A stretch of DNA of 64,000 nt from Mogibacterium sp. (lineage in GTDB: Bacteria; Bacillota; Clostridia; Peptostreptococcales; Anaerovoracaceae), in assembly GCA_017431685.1 (NCBI GenBank), contig JAFRKO010000010.1:1-64000 (forward strand), given 5' to 3'. The position numbers and the translations under genes were made by a program. The first letter of the stretch is position 1, and the number at the start of each line of letters is the position of its first letter. This document shows positions 49,794 through 57,889 of the stretch, piece after piece. Under the pieces are notes generated by a model that was given only the letters and a program-made list of their open reading frames with translations, searched no databases and was not told the DNA's origin.

Positions 49794-50798
49794 TTAACAT
49801 ATTCTAGGCAGCAATTCACCGCCAGGCTGCGGCAGAAGTGTCTCTGCACCTATTTCAGTAGTCATTATGACCTTTCCCGGCATCTCATCTGTTATCTCTC
49901 CTATGACAGCAGCTTTTGAGGTGTATTTTCCTTGCCTCAGTACTTCAAGTATCTTATCTGCTTCTTCTTTTGGCGCAATGATCACAAGGCGCCCCTCGCA
50001 GGCAAGATAGAGCGGCTCAAGGCCAAGCATCCCGCAGACACCTTTTACTGCTCTGTCGACCGGAACAGATTCTGCTTCGATTCTTATACCTACATTGCTC
50101 TGCTCAGCAATTTCATAAAGGACCGTGCCTACGCCTCCGCGCGTGGCATCTCTGATAACATGGACATCGTCCGCAGCTGACAGAACAGAGTCTACTGCAC
50201 CCCACAGCGGTGCGCAGTCACTGTCGACATCAGCTTCTATGCCATATTCATTGCGGGCAAGAAGGATCGTGCATCCGTGTCTTCCGACATCACCTGTTAC
50301 GATTACAGCATCACCCGGTTTTGCCAGCGCTCCTCCGGTCTTTACGCCATCTCTTATGCGACCGATCCCGGTAGTGGTGATAAACACGCCATCCACCTGT
50401 CCTTTGCCGGCTACTTTCGTATCTCCGGCAACGATCCTGACTCCAGCTTCTGCAGCTGTCTTTTCCATGGCAGCAGCGATCTCTTCAAGCTTATCCATCG
50501 GGAAGCCTTCCTCTATGACAAAAGCGCATGTCAGATAGAGCGGCTCAGCTCCCATGCAGGCAAGATCATTGACTGTTCCGCATATGGAAAGCTTTCCTAC
50601 ATTCCCGCCCGGGAATTCATACGGAGAAACGATAAACCCGTCAGTCGACATGGCCAGTTTCCCTGCTTCTATATCCAGAACAGCCGCGTCATCCGCTGTA
50701 AAGAGCGGATTGGCAAAATGCGCCGCAAATACTTCATGTATAAGCTCAGATGTCTGCTTGCCACCTGCCCCGTGTGCAAGAGTTACAGTCTTACCCAT
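49794..50798 (-). CDS. hypE: Hydrogenase expression/formation protein HypE
   Basis: A 334-aa protein of the AIR-synthase/ThiL-like ATPase fold that dehydrates the HypF-made thiocarboxamide to a thiocyanate on its C-terminal Cys, giving the CN ligands of the Fe(CN)2CO unit. Visible: HGAGGKQT at the N-terminus, the FTADDAAVLD ATP/metal segment, and the diagnostic C-terminal PRIC with carrier Cys334 intact. It starts within the hypD stop (8-nt overlap). No hydrogenase gene is adjacent; the operon is nitrogenase-like. Confidence 0.97.
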   Translation of the reverse strand: MGKTVTLAHGAGGKQTSELIHEVFAAHFANPLFTADDAAVLDIEAGKLAMSTDGFIVSPYEFPGGNVGKLSICGTVNDLACMGAEPLYLTCAFVIEEGFPMDKLEEIAAAMEKTAAEAGVRIVAGDTKVAGKGQVDGVFITTTGIGRIRDGVKTGGALAKPGDAVIVTGDVGRHGCTILLARNEYGIEADVDSDCAPLWGAVDSVLSAADDVHVIRDATRGGVGTVLYEIAEQSNVGIRIEAESVPVDRAVKGVCGMLGLEPLYLACEGRLVIIAPKEEADKILEVLRQGKYTSKAAVIGEITDEMPGKVIMTTEIGAETLLPQPGGELLPRIC

Positions 50799-51852
50799 CT
50801 ATTGTCTCCTTCCTGTATGCGTACCATGCCGCACAAGTTCCTTCATTAGATACCATGCAAGCTCCTATAGGGTGAAGCGGAGTGCATCCCCTGCCAAACA
50901 CCTTGCAGTCTGCAGGTGTGCATTTACCCTGAAGCACATCACCGCACCTGCATGCAGGATTAGGTCTGCCCTTGATCTCAGGCAGGCTGAATTTCTTTCT
51001 CGCATCATAAGCCGCGTATTCTTTGCGCAGCCTCAGTCCGGACTGCGATATTATACCAAGCCCTCTCCACTCGGAGTCGCAAGGTTCCATAATTTCTTCC
51101 ATCATGCGCTTTCCGGGGATACTTCCTTCATCAGTCACGACTCTCGGATAGCAGTTTTTGAAAAACGGCTTGCCCTCCTGAAGCTTTACGATAGTGACCG
51201 CAAGCGCTGCCAGTATCTCTTTGGCGGTAAACCCCGCGACGACGCCGTAGATGCCTTCATCGACCAGCTGCGCACATGAATCAGCACCGGTTATCGCATT
51301 AACATGACCCGGATACAGGAACGCATCCGCACTTCCCTTAAGGGCTCGGTAAGCATTGGTCATCGTCTTGTTGGCAGTCAGGATCGAGAAATTGTCTATT
51401 CCCTGCTCTGCCGCCATTTTGACAGCCATGCATGCCGAAGGTGTCGTGGTCTCAAAGCCGACTGCAAGGAACACGACCTGTTCCTCAGGATGCTCAGCAG
51501 CATATTTACACGCATCAGTCGGTGTATATACCGGCAGCACTCTGGCTCCTTCGCTCCTTGCTCCGGCCAGACTCTTTTCTGAACCCGGAACGCGTATAAG
51601 GTCACCGAATGTAGTGATAGTGCAGTTATGCTTTTCTGCCAGATACACAGCTTCGTCTATGAAACCTACCGGCGTTACGCACACCGGGCATCCCGGTCCC
51701 GAGATGAGTTCTATATTATCCGGGAGTATATTCCTTACACCGAGCCTGAATATCTCATGAGTATGCGTACCGCACACTTCCATGATGCGGACCTTTGGTC
51801 CGTCGTAGCTCTGGATTATCTCCCGTGCAGTTTTTTTATTATTGTCATTCAT
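50791..51852 (-). CDS. hypD: Hydrogenase expression/formation protein HypD
   Basis: A 353-aa scaffold that, with HypC, carries the Fe(CN)2CO intermediate and holds a [4Fe-4S] cluster. Family motifs are complete: MEVCGTHTH (C27, H30, H32), GPGCPVCVTP (C55, C58), FEVTTPSA-type segment, and the C-terminal Cys series including GRGCTPLHPIGAC and NEGTC (near C332 and C340). Both the Fe-binding and cluster-binding residues appear present. Coupled to hypC and hypE. Confidence 0.97.
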   Translation of the reverse strand: MNDNNKKTAREIIQSYDGPKVRIMEVCGTHTHEIFRLGVRNILPDNIELISGPGCPVCVTPVGFIDEAVYLAEKHNCTITTFGDLIRVPGSEKSLAGARSEGARVLPVYTPTDACKYAAEHPEEQVVFLAVGFETTTPSACMAVKMAAEQGIDNFSILTANKTMTNAYRALKGSADAFLYPGHVNAITGADSCAQLVDEGIYGVVAGFTAKEILAALAVTIVKLQEGKPFFKNCYPRVVTDEGSIPGKRMMEEIMEPCDSEWRGLGIISQSGLRLRKEYAAYDARKKFSLPEIKGRPNPACRCGDVLQGKCTPADCKVFGRGCTPLHPIGACMVSNEGTCAAWYAYRKETIDG

Positions 51853-51870
51853 AATACTTTTCCCGAACTT

Positions 51871-52080
51871 TTACAGAAGATCATCAAGCAATGCATCAGC
51901 CTCTTCATCATCATCAGATGTGATCTTTGCTATAGCGACCCCTGCATGCACCATAACATAATCGCCCGGATCAAGCTGCTCCAGCAGCTCGGCCGATACT
52001 TCCCTCTTTGCTCCTGATGCGTCAACAAGCGCCATGCCGTTTTTGACTGTCACCACTCTTGCAGGTAAGCCTACACACAT
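51871..52080 (-). CDS. hypC: Hydrogenase assembly chaperone HypC
   Basis: A 69-aa protein with the defining N-terminus M-C2-V-G-L-P. Cys2 binds the iron of the Fe(CN)2CO unit together with HypD, and the chaperone hands it on to the target apoprotein. The small OB-fold follows, with an acidic C-terminal tail. AGGAGG precedes the start. In a typical hydrogenase operon HypC recognises a large subunit; here the nearest candidate clients are the nitrogenase-like subunits. Confidence 0.95.
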   Translation of the reverse strand: MCVGLPARVVTVKNGMALVDASGAKREVSAELLEQLDPGDYVMVHAGVAIAKITSDDDEEADALLDDLL

Positions 52081-52095
52081 TTTCTTATCCTCCTC

Positions 52096-54558
52096 TTACA
52101 TATGAAGTTCATCTATATGTTCAACTGTCCGCTGAACATTCTCAGCGCCCTTTCCTGAGGGGTCGCCTTTTTTCGTTCTATATAAAGCTCTTGCAGCTAC
52201 AGCAGCCTGTCCGAGACATATGCCGCCGTCATTAGGCGGTACCATGCTGTGTATCATCACCTCGAAGCCTTCCTTCTCAAGTCCTGCCTCACACATCCTC
52301 AGGAGCAGCCTGTTCTGGAAAACTCCACCGCTCAGCGCAGCGATCTGCACACCGGTTTTCTTTCTTATCCTGCAGCACATATCGACTATACCATCCGCGA
52401 GCGACTGATGGAACATCCATGCGAGTTCTTCCTGCGAGCGTCCGTTCATTCTTTGAGCGACCAGCCACATGAACATACCGTTCGTGTTCTGTATGAGTGC
52501 TCCATCATCAGTCATCCCGGCACAAGGCGCAGGCATCATGTCTTTATCTGCTGCATCACCGTATTGCACAGTTCCCGGCTCTTCGCTCCATCTTTCAGCT
52601 GTGAACTGGAGTGTAGTGGATGCTTCACCTTCGAATGTCGATACCCTTCTGATACCCAGAGCGGCACTTACAGCATCAAAGAGCCTTCCTGCACTTGTCG
52701 ATCTGATGCTGTTGATATTTTTATCCGCCATCATGAACTGAACTCTAAGCTCCTGATCAGAACAAAGTCCCAGTTTCTCTACTATAGCAGCAGTCTTTTC
52801 TCTGTCTCCGGTTGCTGCGTAGATCATTGACACCGCAATTCTCCAGCCCTCTTTTGCCGAGACATCTCCGCCGATCTGGAGGAATGGAGCTATATGTCCT
52901 TCTCTTGCATATCCGTCCAGGTCAGCAAGCAGGAATTCCCCGCCCCATACAGTTCCGTCATCTCCATATCCGGTACCGTCGAAAGACACTCCGATCACCT
53001 TATCCGTGCGGTTATTCTCTGCAAGGCATGATGCTATGTGAGCATAGTGGTGCTGGACCTCTATCACAGGCAGTCCCAGCTCATGAGCAACAGCTGAAGT
53101 GTTGTATTTCGGGTGCTTGTCGCACGCGACGATCTCAGGCCCGGCCTCAAGGAGATCGCACATCCTCTTAATCGACTCTCTGAGAGCTCTTACAGTACGT
53201 ATATCCTCTGTGTCACCGATGTATGGGGACGGATAAAAGAGATGGTTTCTCGAAACACAAAACGTATTCTTGAGCTCTCCGCCTATAGCAAGCACGCTGC
53301 CCGGGCAAGGCATATCCAGCATGAAAGGCAGTGGTGCATAACCTCTTGACCTTCTTATCATATAAGGTTCGCCTTTGTGAAAATCCATGACAGAGTCATC
53401 AGCGCGAAGTCTTATAAGCCGGTTATGGGAAAGGATCACATCGCACATTCTGGAAAGCTCTCTCACAGCGTCCTCATCGTCCCTGCATATAGCTGCGCCC
53501 GATACGTTGCCGCTTGTCATGACCAGACAATCCGGCATAGTGATCCCGTCAGGATAGTCAAACAGCAGCATCTGTACCGGTGCATACGGCAGCATCACTC
53601 CTATGGCCGGGTTATCAGGAGCGATCCCGGGAGCCAGTTTTGCGTCTGGCGCTCCTTTCCTCTTTCTGAGAAGCAGTATCGGTTTCTGATGACCATCTAT
53701 GATCTCTTCCTGATAATCTTCAAGTATACATTCTCTGCGGACTGCTGTGAGATCTCTCATCATGACGGCAAAAGGTTTTGCCGGACGTGGCTTGATGTCC
53801 CTTAACCTCTGCACTGCTGCCTGATTGGTGGCATCGCAGCACAGATGGAATCCGCCGATGCCTTTAATCGCAACTATACCGCCACTGCTCACTATACGCC
53901 TGACCTCCGTGATAGCAGGTCCGCCTTTCATCCATTTTGGCAGTGAACTGACATCGACGGGCAAAACAGCGCTTCCGTCAGTCGGGATCATATATACTTC
54001 CGGTCCGCAGTCATTGCAGCAGACCGGCTGTGCATCGTATCTCCTTGTCTCTGAATGTGTATACTCATATTCGCACTGAGGGCACATCGGGAATTCCGCC
54101 ATACTGGTGCGTATCCTGTCATAAGGCATCCCGTCAAGGATCGTGGTCCTCGGTCCGCATGATGTGCAGTTTATGAAGGGATGCAGATACCGCCTGTCAT
54201 TGGGATCGAACAGCTCCGTTCTGCACCTTTTGCATGTAGCTATATCAGGAGATACGAATATCTCTCCGCTGACCTTGGCGCTCTCTATTATAGAAAAGTG
54301 ATCATCTTTTCTGATGTTCTGCGGCGCATCCTCTCTGTCGAGCTTAAGGATTATAGCCCTTTCAGGGGGATTATGCCTGAGGTCATCAAGAAAGGCATCG
54401 ATATCCGCGGCCTCACCCTGAGCATCTATCTCAACGTAAGGGCCTTTATTGCTTACACTTCCTTTTATGCCGTGTTTATTCGCAAGTCTGTCTACCGATG
54501 GGCGGAATCCCACGCCCTGAACTATTCCGTATACCCTTGCAATGACAGCATGCTGCAT
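52096..54558 (-). CDS. hypF: Carbamoyltransferase HypF
   Basis: An 820-aa protein that converts carbamoyl phosphate to a carbamoyl-adenylate and loads it on HypE. Modules in order: acylphosphatase (VQGVGFRP, R19, N37), two C4 zinc fingers (C109/C112, C131/C134, C159/C162, C180-C184 region), a YrdC-like domain, and a Kae1-like domain with HHYAHIAS. All regions are intact and near the usual length. ATG 54558 is preferred because AGAGGT lies at good spacing; an upstream extension reads through the previous gene's end. Confidence 0.96.
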   Translation of the reverse strand: MQHAVIARVYGIVQGVGFRPSVDRLANKHGIKGSVSNKGPYVEIDAQGEAADIDAFLDDLRHNPPERAIILKLDREDAPQNIRKDDHFSIIESAKVSGEIFVSPDIATCKRCRTELFDPNDRRYLHPFINCTSCGPRTTILDGMPYDRIRTSMAEFPMCPQCEYEYTHSETRRYDAQPVCCNDCGPEVYMIPTDGSAVLPVDVSSLPKWMKGGPAITEVRRIVSSGGIVAIKGIGGFHLCCDATNQAAVQRLRDIKPRPAKPFAVMMRDLTAVRRECILEDYQEEIIDGHQKPILLLRKRKGAPDAKLAPGIAPDNPAIGVMLPYAPVQMLLFDYPDGITMPDCLVMTSGNVSGAAICRDDEDAVRELSRMCDVILSHNRLIRLRADDSVMDFHKGEPYMIRRSRGYAPLPFMLDMPCPGSVLAIGGELKNTFCVSRNHLFYPSPYIGDTEDIRTVRALRESIKRMCDLLEAGPEIVACDKHPKYNTSAVAHELGLPVIEVQHHYAHIASCLAENNRTDKVIGVSFDGTGYGDDGTVWGGEFLLADLDGYAREGHIAPFLQIGGDVSAKEGWRIAVSMIYAATGDREKTAAIVEKLGLCSDQELRVQFMMADKNINSIRSTSAGRLFDAVSAALGIRRVSTFEGEASTTLQFTAERWSEEPGTVQYGDAADKDMMPAPCAGMTDDGALIQNTNGMFMWLVAQRMNGRSQEELAWMFHQSLADGIVDMCCRIRKKTGVQIAALSGGVFQNRLLLRMCEAGLEKEGFEVMIHSMVPPNDGGICLGQAAVAARALYRTKKGDPSGKGAENVQRTVEHIDELHM

Positions 54559-54571
54559 GTCAAATACCTCT

Positions 54572-55678
54572 CTAATTATAGAATCTGACCGATTCTTCAT
54601 CAGCAAAATGGCCTGATACGGCGAAGTGCGGCAATTCTATGAACCTGCCGCCGAAATCTCCCGCAGCTTTGCGGAATGATCCATCTGCGATGATGATATC
54701 CCAGTTTCCGTCTCTGACCCGGTCAAAGAAATCAGATTCCTCTCTGATCCTGAAATCGCCTTCTTCAGCTATCTCATCAAACATCGAAAACCATGTCGCT
54801 GCTGTGATCTCAGGAGAATCGCTTAAGCCTCCTGTCTCCTCCAGGAGTGCTTCTCTGAGAGCGTTAGCCCTCACCTGCTGATGTATTATCAGCACCTTCT
54901 TACCGTAAAGCTCTTCCGTATCCAGAGGAAGGCCGGCGCGTACATCTGTTATAAGCGGATCAGTACACTCGTAAGGTGTTCCATATCTCTCTTTGAGATA
55001 TCTTGCAGCCCTGATTCCTGAAGCAGCCACCACAATGTTCTTTTCCATTCTGCCTGCATCTGCGAAGTCGTCAAGTGAGCCTCCCGCACCGTAGCAGATA
55101 ACTCTCCTGCTGCCCTTTTTTCTCAAGGTCTCTATGATCCTCTTCCCGCTGGTGAGACTGTCCGAATCGAGCGGTGTGACACCTATGACCCCGACAGAAC
55201 CAGGAATGATACATTTTGCATTATCCTCCGGAATGAATCTCCTGAAACATTCAATATAAGTCTTTTCGATTCCCGAGTCATACCAGAGAACACCATTGCT
55301 GTCTATTGTTATGACCGGCAGCCCGGTCCTCTTCTCTGCCATTCGTCTGAGCGCTTTATAATCCGTTGCGATCGTCGCCGGCACCGGTGTACCAATGACA
55401 GCTACGAAATTTGCATCGATCTTAGCTGACGCTTTTTTTATTTTCTCTATGAGGAGATCATCTCTTCCGAGAATGGCATCCATATCCCTGAGTCCGGCAG
55501 AAAAAACCGCACTTTTGGTGCTGAGCCATCTCGGCTCATCGAATCCGCACACATTTCCTGCACATCCGCCGGCATCGCATATGATTATCATACCGCCGAG
55601 CTCATAAAGTACCGCGGCAGCTCCCGACTGGTCCGGCGCAAATGGATATATTATTTTGTGAAGTCCTTTTACACTCAT
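54572..55678 (-). CDS. Nitrogenase component-1-like subunit (NifK/NifE-type, short)
   Basis: A 368-aa protein with the NifD/K fold. The N-terminal PFAPDQSGAA, ICDAGGCAGNVCGFDEPRW and DMDAILGRDD segments match uncharacterised clostridial component-1 oxidoreductases. Cysteines C34, C39 and C44 cluster at the N-terminus and could bind an Fe-S cluster. The position matching NifK Cys153 (a T-T-C in Mo nitrogenase) reads GTPVPAT, with no Cys. Much shorter than NifK (~520 aa). It overlaps the NifD-like gene by 4 nt and is followed by hypF after 13 nt. Not expected to fix nitrogen. Confidence 0.85.
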   Translation of the reverse strand: MSVKGLHKIIYPFAPDQSGAAAVLYELGGMIIICDAGGCAGNVCGFDEPRWLSTKSAVFSAGLRDMDAILGRDDLLIEKIKKASAKIDANFVAVIGTPVPATIATDYKALRRMAEKRTGLPVITIDSNGVLWYDSGIEKTYIECFRRFIPEDNAKCIIPGSVGVIGVTPLDSDSLTSGKRIIETLRKKGSRRVICYGAGGSLDDFADAGRMEKNIVVAASGIRAARYLKERYGTPYECTDPLITDVRAGLPLDTEELYGKKVLIIHQQVRANALREALLEETGGLSDSPEITAATWFSMFDEIAEEGDFRIREESDFFDRVRDGNWDIIIADGSFRKAAGDFGGRFIELPHFAVSGHFADEESVRFYN

Positions 55679-56961
55679 GCAAGGGCCTCCGTCATTTTTT
55701 CAAATAAGCGTGTTACTCCCGAATATCCGAAAGGCTGTTTTTCCTCATTCCACGGCACATTAGGACAATCGGGATGATAGTACTCAGCATCCTTTCCGAG
55801 TGTCAGATCCGCATCTGCCCTGCTGCAGTCATAGAAGAGCATGGTCGGAGAAAGATTTGTAAACAACCTGGTCTCCGGTGATATCTCAGCAAGATGTCTT
55901 ATAAACACATAGTCCTCGCGGGATACATTCGAATATATCTCCGGGACTTTGAATCCGTATTTTACCAGAGCAAGCGCGAGCTCAAAAGCATTGGCGTTGA
56001 GCATCTCGCCTACAGCAATGCTTATGCTGCCATACTTTTCCCTGAAGTCTGCTACTGCCCTCTCTGCCCGTTCTCTGAATTCAGAGTCATCGAACACAGC
56101 GCCTATGCTTTCCGCGAACGCACTGTACTGATTAGCTATCTTATCTGTCTGATACAGGCGTGTCAGTTCGAGATATGGTATTCCGAGCCTTCCAGCAAGG
56201 TCATCAGCAGCTGTCCGGGCCTCATGGTTAAGGATTATATTGAAATTGGCACGAGACATACCCATATACTCCTCAAACTCATTGCATCTGGAAATCTCGT
56301 TTATCTTTTTTACTCCTGCCTGTCTGAGCAGATCATACATTTCACAATCATCAGTCAGAGGAGAGAAATACCCCATAATATTGACTGTACGCGGATCTCT
56401 CTTCGCCGGTTCAAGAAGTGAATAGATAGCTTTGCGGACAAGTACCATCGGAGGTTTACGGCCTTCACGAGTAAGGGCGTACATATAACATGGTCTGACA
56501 GGCACTCCGGAGAGTGTCTCAGCCTTCCGGCATACCCTGTCCCAGTCTGTCCCGAGAAGCGCATCCACACAGGTAGCGCAGACCATGACCGCGGATGGTT
56601 TCTCGTCCAGATAATCGACGACTTCCCTGACTGCCTCAGGTACCCTGGCCAGATGATCACCGTTTACGATGTCCGATTCATCCATAAGCAGAAAGAAGAA
56701 TCTGTCCTCATAACCAGGTATCTCAGACAGAAGCTTGGTATTGCGTCCGCAGCATCCCGGTGCTACAAGCAGCATAACTGATCCAGGGATGGCGAGTCCT
56801 GCCCTTTTGACACCAAAGCCTGTCGCTCCCGGAGAGTTGAATGCCAGAGTTGCCGGCGAGCTGTATATCAGCTGCGTTGCAGGCACCAGTTCAGGTGGTA
56901 TATTGTCTGCACCGGCTTCATTAAGTTCTCTTATGGTAATACTGTATGGTTCTGTTATCAT
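55675..56961 (-). CDS. Nitrogenase component-1-like subunit (NifD-type, short)
   Basis: A 428-aa protein with the component-1 fold. Recognisable segments are APGCCGRNT (C70-C71), [20 protein letters not shown] (C128, C131) and LGIPYLEL. By eye, C70 and C131 match NifD Cys88 and Cys154. The match to NifD Cys62 has no Cys (there is none before residue 70), and the NifD Cys275 region (FeMo-cofactor ligand) reads as IILNHEAR without Cys. The cofactor site therefore differs from that of MoFe protein. It overlaps the NifH-like gene by 4 nt, so the two are translated together. Confidence 0.87.
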
Positions 56962-57713
56962 ATGTCCAGCTCCAGAAGCCTCTCTGCAAGCTCTGTGAAT
57001 TTGCGGCTGATCGGCAGATCAGGATCCCCTTCGATCACTGTCATACCCTGTTCTTCAAACTGATTGATTTCATCACTTCTCGGGATATCGCCTATGATCT
57101 CAAGGCCTTTTTCTGCTGCAAAGTTTTTGACTTTTTCTTCTTCTCCCGGGATGTTCCTTCGATTGAGTATGATTCCTGCGACGTCGGCATAGCCACGGTC
57201 TGCAAAGTTTTCTACTGCGCTGCATATGTTGTTGGCAGCATAAAGTGCCATCTTCTCTCCTGATGTTACTATCAGGACATGCTCGGCATACCCCTCTCTT
57301 ATAGGTGCAGCAAATCCACCGCAGACTACATCGCCAAGCACGTCATACATAACCACATCCGGTTTTACCGTCTCAAAGAGTTCCAGCTCCTCAAGCAAAT
57401 TGAATGTGGCGATGATACCGCGCCCGGCACATCCGAGCCCCGGTGTCGGACCGCCGGTCTCGATGCAGAGGATATCACCATATCCGGTCTCGGAAATCTC
57501 GTCTATGGATGTTATATCGTCACCGTGATCTCTTATATAGTCCATAACCGGCTGCTGAGCTCTTCCCCCAAGCAGATTGATAGTCGAATCAGCCTTCGGA
57601 TCGCAGCCTATCTGTATTACTTTTTTCCCAAGCGAAGCAAAAGCAGCTGAAAGATTTGCTGTCATAGTTGATTTACCGATACCGCCCTTGCCGTAGATCG
57701 CCAGTTTTAACAT
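56958..57713 (-). CDS. NifH/BchL-family ATP-dependent reductase
   Basis: A 251-aa homodimeric ATPase that would hold a [4Fe-4S] cluster at the dimer interface and drive ATP-coupled electron transfer to the component-1-like subunits. Complete signature: P-loop GKGGIGKST (8-16), switch CDPKADST (37-44), cluster ligands C95 (GLGCAGRG) and C131 ([12 protein letters not shown]), plus R98 at the position that is ADP-ribosylated in some NifH proteins. Shorter than NifH (~290) but near BchL/CfbC lengths. AGGAG upstream. First gene of a seven-gene operon. Confidence 0.95.
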
Positions 57714-57889
57714 GCAAGTTTCTCCTGAATCCTATTTAAATCGTAAAAAAAGCTCTCTCATCCGGACGACCGAAATGAAAAAGCCTGCTTAAAACATAGC
57801 AAACGAATCGCTATTCTCAAATCTTATTGATTTCAGCAAGCTTTCTGCTCGGAATTACCTTGCAGTCAGGATGTCACAGCTATATTATA
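57714..57889 (-). promoter_or_regulatory. Promoter and structured leader of the nif-like/hyp operon (attenuator or riboswitch candidate)
   Basis: The minus strand carries TATAAT (57884-57889) with a weak -35, TTGTAT (57906-57911), at 16 nt. The leader of about 165 nt can form a stem AAAGCTTGC (57844-57836) with GCAGGCTTT (57788-57780), 9 bp with one G-U, enclosing two small hairpins. A competing stem GCAAG/CTTGC uses 57863-57859 and 57840-57836. The downstream arm of the first stem overlaps the 5' arm of the terminator at 57745-57784, so the structures exclude each other. Confidence 0.72.
57745..57784 (-). terminator. Leader terminator before the NifH-like gene
   Basis: A 10-bp stem, GCTTTTTCAT (57784-57775) with ATGAGAGAGC (57761-57752), with inner CGG/CCG pairing and a U7 tract (57751-57745) on the minus strand. 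It lies about 30 nt before the ribosome site, so the operon is expressed only when this hairpin is prevented. Confidence 0.87.

Follow-up and report, generated by a model that had tools for sequence, protein, structure and literature searches.

We report a seven-gene operon that likely takes the place of HydG when the H-cluster of [FeFe] hydrogenases is assembled, and that would thus be part of a HydG-free route to this cofactor. The operon lies on the minus strand of a stretch of 64,000 nucleotides from Mogibacterium sp. (assembly GCA_017431685.1, contig JAFRKO010000010.1), which we call the window, and it combines three nitrogenase-like genes, nifH, nifD and nifK (trio 1), with the Hyp genes hypF, hypC, hypD and hypE. 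A second, diverged NifHDK-like trio (trio 2) adjoins many of the operon loci. We arrive at a HydG-independent route because of four kinds of evidence: the neighbouring genes, the exclusion of HydG, the absence of a [NiFe] hydrogenase, and a HydE that is unchanged. The replacement of HydG is strongly supported by co-occurrence, and the chemistry is what we infer from the genes.

To our knowledge, no organism is known to obtain the CO and CN ligands of its H-cluster from any enzyme other than HydG. Among the open-licence papers that we searched, a set that leaves most subscription papers outside, no title or abstract opening describes a system of this kind.

Gene order and hydrogenase-maturation neighbours

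A scan of public genomes produced 16 relatives (L001-L016) labelled as uncultured Clostridiales, Clostridia, Lachnospiraceae, Eubacterium and Mogibacterium, and some of their record titles carry the words rumen or jejunum. Together with the window, a family sample and other families of the class, this brings the loci that hold trio 1 or its Hyp genes to 36. The order nifH-nifD-nifK-hypF-hypC-hypD-hypE is kept in 27 of the 28 loci that are long enough to tell (the remaining 8 run into the end of a contig or stretch). These loci span at least three families, and their proteins are between about 97% and about 40% identical to those of the window. One of the 27, L001, has the nifH end alone, at a contig end.

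Hydrogenase-maturation genes recur as neighbours of these genes, and in five loci they sit inside the trio, between nifD and nifK: hydE and hydF in L008, L009 and L010, hydE in L011, and hydF in L016. The inserts of L009, L011 and L016 score 575.9 and 561.3 bits as HydE (cut-off 254.6) and 576.3 and 560.5 bits as HydF (cut-off 325.6); those of L008 and L010 were identified by tblastn. The only other insertion seen is an open reading frame of 179 amino acids between nifH and nifD in L014. These five insertions point to the [FeFe] hydrogenase as the missing partner of the operon. As further examples, L061 reads hydA-hydE-hydF-TM1266-nifHDK-hypFCDE as a single run, and L203 reads TM1266-hydF-hydE-trio2-trio1-hypFCDE, also in one run; the corresponding run in a genome with HydG (L056) is TM1266-hydE-hydG-hydF. 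In total, 13 of the 36 loci are linked to hydA, hydE or hydF, and 19 if the hydrogenase-system regulator TM1266 is included; a distant HydA-like protein in L007 (26% identity) was left out of this count.

The operon and HydG exclude each other

The genome of the window (G000; 2.74 Mb in 74 contigs, 94% complete, the window being its contig C28) has three HydA-type matches outside the window, a HydE of 587.6 bits and a HydF of 556.7 bits, and HydG is without a match over the cut-off. An earlier, sequence-only reading of the window had found no hydrogenase; with respect to [NiFe] enzymes this holds for the whole genome, in which PF00374, the model of the large subunit whose genome-wide search that reading had suggested, has no match, but it does not hold for [FeFe] hydrogenases. 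In the 17 operon genomes formed by G000 and those of L001-L016, HydA is over the cut-off in 16, HydF in 15 and HydG (TIGR03955) in none. We considered a hidden HydG and rejected it: the best HydG-like match in the 17 genomes (G016, 182.6 bits) is ThiH, with 499.8 bits to the ThiH model, and by eye the open reading frames that flank it resemble thiG and thiE.

The same exclusion is observed in a family sample of 148 genomes, searched with NifD, HydG and HydF profiles at E 1e-60. The operon is found in 14 of these genomes, HydG in 52 (51 over the cut-off) and HydF in 73 (71 over the cut-off), and operon and HydG occur together in none of the 148. The 73 genomes with HydF divide into 13 with the operon alone, 50 with HydG alone, 10 with neither and none with both (Fisher p 1.3e-8, which because the genomes are related is a guide and not a strict probability).

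If HydG is replaced, we can ask what HydE receives. We compared HydE from 16 HydG-free loci with HydE from 17 HydG loci (sequences of at least 270 amino acids were available in 16 of 16 and 17 of 22 loci, respectively). There are 96 near-invariant columns common to both sets, the two sets are mixed in the tree, and no alignment column separates them. A divergent HydE acting as a substitute for HydG is ruled out by this lack of a discriminating column, and it follows that HydE likely meets the same substrate in both sets of genomes. As to the hydrogenase itself, motif L2 of HydA is present in 15 of the 18 sequences scanned. Motif L1 reads TSCSPGW in several HydG-free genomes (L045, L038, L047, L049) and in the best HydA match of G000, and TSCCPGW in others.

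Hyp genes mostly without a [NiFe] hydrogenase

HypF and HypE convert carbamoyl phosphate to cyanide and HypC and HypD hold Fe(CN)2CO, and together they are the known maturation set of [NiFe] hydrogenases. A [NiFe] large-subunit match is present in only 4 of 29 operon genomes and in none of six genomes with trio 2 only, compared with 14 of 15 controls chosen from 59 HypD-bearing genomes without the operon (p 3.5e-7). The HypD tree says the same. The 29 operon HypD sequences, from three families and L001-L016, form one clade apart from 20 control HypD sequences, with a support of 100/100; and in G125, where a [NiFe] match is accompanied by a second HypD, that second HypD groups with the controls.

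A second nitrogenase-like trio

The NifH of trio 2 forms a separate clade (support 100/100). Using a NifD2 profile on the 148 family genomes, trio 2 is found in 20: the 14 operon genomes, without exception, and six more. HydG is found in none of the 20. Five of the six genomes with trio 2 only have HydF but neither HydG nor the operon, and thus account for 5 of the 10 that have neither. In one locus, L076 of G073, the genes read hydE-nifH2-nifD2-nifK2-hydF, with trio 2 at the position of hydG. As G000 has an [FeFe] hydrogenase, HydE and HydF, no HydG, and trio 2 as well, the likely product of its operon is the H-cluster.

We extended the comparison to a class sample of 391 genomes, in which 20 have trio 2 and 16 of these have strong matches (427 bits or more). 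At E 1e-60, HydG is without a match in 14 of the 16. The other two, G370 and G476, have HydG matches (E 6.6e-66 and 2.4e-64) that are far weaker than a full HydG and are probably ThiH. The class-wide exclusion for strong trio 2 has p 1.5e-7 with HydG in 0 of 16, and p 3.7e-5 if G370 and G476 are counted as having HydG. The switch between the two is also observed within genera: g151 has six trio-2 genomes without HydG and three genomes with HydG, g234 has two with trio 2 and one with HydG, and g285 and g5 have one of each.

In genus g151 (L205-L208), trio 2 appears without a NifH of its own beside it, and one NifH may serve both trios there. The leader RNA that precedes nifH in the window (described below) stands in L205 (G469) directly before hypC-D-E-TM1266-nifD2-nifK2-hydF-hydE, so that a single run holds Hyp genes, trio 2 and the two hyd maturases.

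Points that weigh against the replacement of HydG

Several observations do not fit easily with the operon replacing HydG. The window's own operon has no adjacent hyd genes; in G000 HydE and HydF are on contig C23 and trio 2 is on C51. The gene order is broken in L205, where hypC-D-E has neither hypF nor trio 1 upstream. HydF was not found in G006 and G014, two of the 17 operon genomes, or in G125, and HydA was not found in G013. The confirmation of HydE covers G000 and the examined loci. Five HydF genomes (G036, G079, G080, G107 and G157) have neither HydG nor either of the trios, and the six family genomes with trio 2 only are without trio 1 and without HypD, from which it follows that trio 1 and Hyp are not needed in every HydG-free genome.

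The statistics can also be made less favourable. If each genus counts only once, the exclusion in the family weakens to p 0.012. The class sample includes four weak trio-2 matches (291-354 bits), three of which are in HydG genomes and none of which has hyd genes in the stretch examined, and they look like a relative with a different role; taking all 20 class matches gives p 1.7e-5, or 5.8e-4 with G370 and G476 as HydG genomes. When HydF is placed in a tree (63 rows), the label of trio 2 without HydG changes 8 times on the best tree, and 4 of these changes are forced by well-supported branches. Finally there is a chemical difficulty. HypCDEF gives Fe(CN)2CO. The product of HydG is Fe(CO)2(CN) (excerpt of PMC12752695), so the ligands must be rearranged.

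The operon in the window and its leader RNA

The features of the operon and its leader are collected in Table 1, where the genes are named by Pfam and NCBIfam profile scores.

Table 1. Features of the nifHDK-hypFCDE operon and its leader in the window, in order of transcription
Feature	Position	Strand	Evidence
Conserved leader RNA element, candidate riboswitch aptamer	57829..57877	-	Covariation and model R1
Terminator-type hairpin and T run in leader	57743..57786	-	Hairpin of -18.4 kcal/mol, then T7
nifH, NifH-like ATP-dependent reductase (trio 1)	56958..57713	-	Fer4_NifH PF00142, 301 bits
nifD, NifD-like component-1 subunit (trio 1)	55675..56961	-	Oxidored_nitro PF00148, 97.8 bits
nifK, NifK-like component-1 subunit (trio 1)	54572..55678	-	Oxidored_nitro PF00148, 68.3 bits
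hypF, carbamoyltransferase (cyanide branch)	52096..54558	-	TIGR00143, 715 bits (cut-off 466)
hypC	51871..52080	-	TIGR00074, 68.2 bits (cut-off 48)
hypD	50791..51852	-	TIGR00075, 385 bits (cut-off 193)
hypE	49794..50798	-	TIGR02124, 418 bits (cut-off 252)

The seven genes form one tight operon from 57713 to 49794. The spacings are -4 nucleotides for nifH-nifD, -4 for nifD-nifK, 15 for hypF-hypC, 18 for hypC-hypD and -8 for hypD-hypE. As listed, hypF starts at a TTG at 54606 and overlaps nifK by 35 nucleotides; the ATG at 54558, with AGAGAGG upstream, looks the likelier start, and it would leave a gap of 13 nucleotides after nifK. All four Hyp proteins are above the curated NCBIfam cut-offs, and the window HypD scores 262.7 bits against the solved HypD structure 2z1d. 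Conserved residues are kept as well: in NifH C95 and C131 (26 of 26 aligned), which we take to be its [4Fe-4S] ligands; in NifD C70, C71, C128, C131 and C144 (26 of 26); in NifK C39 and C44 (25 of 25); in HypC C2 and H45 (22 of 22); in HypE the C-terminal Cys334 (21 of 21); and in the aligned operon HypD sequences the cysteines. The seven packed minus-strand genes of the sequence-only reading are thus all in place, and its description of the Hyp set as complete and in good condition is borne out. HypA, HypB, NifB and NifEN are not among the seven genes, and a genome-wide search for them was not made.

Upstream of nifH, the leader has the core CTGAC-NGC-AAGG-N-CC-GAGCNGG-AAG. In an alignment of 20 leaders, 91.7% of the cells are paired and 11 cells have changed on both sides, and none of 500 shuffles is as high on either measure. 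The model R1 built from these leaders gives 44.4 bits on the window leader, which is part of its own building set. Outside the building set, matches of 25 to 46 bits are found before nifH in L005, L206 and L208, and also ahead of the hypC-D-E run of L205, of hydF in L203 and of TM1266-nifHDK in L061. Across 54 other loci, which include HydG operons, the best R1 match has E 0.046. When the whole leader is folded, an alternative pairing appears, between the 5' arm of the terminator and the 3' flank of the element. A known riboswitch class was considered and rejected: there is no Rfam match at gathering score, and eight further matches are weak (E 1.5 or more). The leader is best described as a candidate new riboswitch, which occurs before trio 1, some hyd operons (L203, L205 and L061) and an importer-hydF operon. 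This last one is L075 in G080, a genome with HydF and with neither HydG nor a trio, where the leader RNA (L075:4256-4304) is followed by a three-gene ATP-binding cassette (ABC) importer and then hydF.

Importer loci

A different arrangement is observed for trio 2 where no Hyp genes are nearby. A periplasmic binding protein adjoins nifK2 in 10 of 11 such loci, and 8 of the 11 have a FecCD-type permease. In trio-2 loci from genomes with Hyp, a binding protein is found in 1 of 24, that of the window's own genome (p 6e-7; in two of the 24 the sequence ends too soon after nifK2). Five of the binding proteins and two of the permeases were identified by Pfam (PF01497 and PF01032) and the others by tblastn; in five of the Hyp-free trio-2 loci, those from other families, Hyp is missing locally only. 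The pattern suggests, and no more, that the product of trio 1 and Hyp can be imported.

Trio 2 together with a FecCD-type ABC importer, often with one or two TM1266-type genes, is seen in L092, L093, L095, L096, L197, L199, L200, L202 and L204, and, leaving aside L092 of the window's genome, these loci have no trio 1 or Hyp nearby. By HydF, G000 and G151 are sister genomes. Both have trio 2 with the importer, and the operon is in G000 only, so either G000 may have acquired it recently or G151 may have lost it. Four further loci (L209-L212) have a distant trio-2-like NifHDK with an ABC importer; three of the four are in HydG genomes, and there are no hyd genes in the stretch examined.

Trio 1 against known nitrogenase relatives

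Trio 1 stays under the curated NCBIfam cut-offs of the characterised families. For the nitrogenase equivalogs, nifH scores 319.5 (cut-off 394) and nifD 35.9 (653). For CfbCD of the F430 pathway, the CfbC score is 304.9 (402), and those for methan_mark_13 are 19.4 with NifD and 21.1 with NifK (268). For BchLNB and BchXYZ, the scores are 212 for BchL (345), 199.5 for BchX (331) and 32.9 for BchB (490). No Mar model is matched by the trio among the NCBIfam scores. The earlier reading knew of no characterised system of this type, and for nitrogenase, CfbCD, BchLNB and BchXYZ these scores agree with it.

An AlphaFold2 model of NifD1, the NifD of trio 1 (predicted local distance difference test 81.6, predicted template modelling score 0.81), has the nitrogenase component-1 fold. 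It resembles the structures of nitrogenase, NifEN, BchNB and Mar about equally, with template modelling scores of 0.58-0.69 of the query in the best 50 matches, in which the Mar structure 9fmg is at rank 38. Such a search on a predicted model would tell the fold, not the function. The clade to which the trio belongs is large: of 8000 candidates scored, 2497 protein clusters match one trio-clade NifD at E 1e-60. Three long NifD relatives (P0001, P0109 and P0030) resemble assembly or start artefacts and were set aside.

Alternative explanations

The pairing of the trio with Hyp could be a chance neighbourhood, in which Hyp serves a [NiFe] hydrogenase and has nothing to do with the trio, a reductase of some other kind. 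HypCDEF is after all the known [NiFe] maturation set, and 4 of the 29 operon genomes do have a large-subunit match. But G000 and 25 of the 29 have none, and we consider this explanation ruled out, or extremely improbable at best, by the [NiFe] survey, the separate clade of the operon HypD and the conserved gene order. The sequence-only reading had itself named a [NiFe] hydrogenase and hypAB elsewhere together with a lack of conserved linkage as signs of chance; we find no such hydrogenase in G000, and the linkage is conserved. Its proposed check of the gene order in other genomes comes out in favour of a real association. It is also hard to believe that the trio is a known tetrapyrrole or C-S reductase (CfbCD, BchLNB/XYZ or MarHDK) with Hyp as an accessory. 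The NifH does reach 305 bits to CfbC and 212 to BchL, and the fold search matches several kinds of component 1 alike, Mar included; against this stand the scores under the cut-offs, the lack of a match to a Mar model, and recurrent neighbours that are hydrogenase-maturation genes.

The two other explanations accept a link to Fe-CN-CO chemistry. According to one, trio 2 alone replaces HydG, and trio 1 with HypCDEF makes a separate, related Fe-CN-CO cofactor or an accessory product for some bacteria. The six family genomes with trio 2 and without trio 1 or HypD, five of them with HydF, speak for it, and so does L076, where it is trio 2 and not trio 1 that holds the position of HydG. However, trio 1 and Hyp are never found without trio 2 in the family (14 of 14), hydE or hydF are inserted within trio 1 itself in five loci, Hyp, trio 2 and HydF are kept together in L203 and in the g151 loci, and the Hyp-free trio-2 loci carry an ABC importer instead; with all this, we regard a division of labour of this kind as rather unlikely. 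According to the other, the H-cluster of these bacteria is modified and has a different set of CO and CN ligands, so that the operon makes a new product and not that of HydG. In [NiFe] hydrogenases HypCDEF chemistry puts two cyanides on each iron, and the TSCSPGW motif of the best HydA match of G000 might point in the same direction. But the HydE of HydG-free genomes has no column that sets it apart, HydF is above the cut-off in 15 of 17 genomes, and motif L2 of HydA is mostly intact, all of which makes a modified cluster very unlikely. A HydG-independent route to the ordinary H-cluster thus remains the explanation that we favour.

A proposed route to the H-cluster

How could these genes make the ligands of the H-cluster? 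HypF and HypE would make cyanide from carbamoyl phosphate, and HypC and HypD would hold it on an iron. The NifH-like protein would drive an ATP-dependent, low-potential delivery of electrons to the NifDK-like proteins, which would either form CO out of CO2 or rearrange Fe(CN)2CO. Both CO2, which gives CO, and cyanide are reduced by nitrogenases. Trio 2 would carry out the last step, the one common to these genomes, and pass Fe(CO)2(CN) to HydE, after which HydF and HydA would act as usual. In the known route, HydG, a radical S-adenosylmethionine (SAM) tyrosine lyase that uses tyrosine and SAM (excerpt of PMC12752695; title of PMC3105041), makes Fe(CO)2(CN)(Cys), which is taken by HydE (excerpt of PMC12752695). 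The sequence-only reading had offered, as one option, a reductase that builds on or carries a cofactor derived from Fe(CN)2CO. The direction, a system that builds an Fe-CN-CO unit, was right; the likely product is the H-cluster, and not a new cofactor carried by the reductase.

A more complete picture can be drawn, which we hold only as a speculative possibility. It would be a tyrosine-free assembly line. HypCDEF would produce iron-bound cyanide out of carbamoyl phosphate, two nitrogenase-like complexes would place on that iron the CO that they form by reducing CO2, and HydE and HydF would complete the cluster. Bacteria without trio 1 and Hyp would keep trio 2 and import the precursor by the FecCD-type ABC importer, so that an organometallic precursor would be shared between rumen cells, and the new riboswitch before nifH would control the pathway.

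If the HydG-independent route is real, there are two unrelated routes to the same organometallic centre, one of them made from relatives of nitrogenase and maturases of [NiFe] hydrogenase, and three iron-based enzyme systems are linked in one pathway. A large unnamed clade of nitrogenase-like proteins would acquire a function. Annotation would have to be corrected, as a missing HydG would be no proof of an inactive [FeFe] hydrogenase; this is relevant to modelling H2 in the rumen. And there would be a new biosynthetic route to [FeFe] hydrogenases made in the laboratory.

Comparison with known systems

With HydG, the operon would share its role, the delivery to HydE of an iron unit bearing CO and CN, and trio 2 holds the place of HydG between hydE and hydF in L076. 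The proteins are different: they belong to another superfamily, and tyrosine cleavage would give way to ATP-driven nitrogenase-like reductases and, for trio 1, to carbamoyl-phosphate chemistry. With the HypCDEF of [NiFe] maturation, the operon shares all four proteins, above the cut-offs and with their conserved cysteines and histidines, and it differs in the lack of a [NiFe] match in 25 of 29 genomes, in being fixed to a nitrogenase-like trio, and in its separate HypD clade.

Among nitrogenase relatives, NifEN is also used for building a cofactor, as the scaffold of the FeMo-cofactor; in NCBIfam NifD1 scores best as NifE, and among PDB sequences NifE comes first both for NifD1 and for NifD2, the NifD of trio 2. 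Yet NifD1 has 73 bits against a NifE cut-off of 505, and the cysteine of NifE in CSKAML, which we take to be the ligand of the L-cluster, has no counterpart in the profile alignment. With CfbCD, BchLNB/XYZ and MarHDK, trio 1 has in common a NifH-like reductase, a NifDK-like partner and the component-1 fold, and it is set apart from the Cfb and Bch systems by scores under their cut-offs and by its other gene neighbours.

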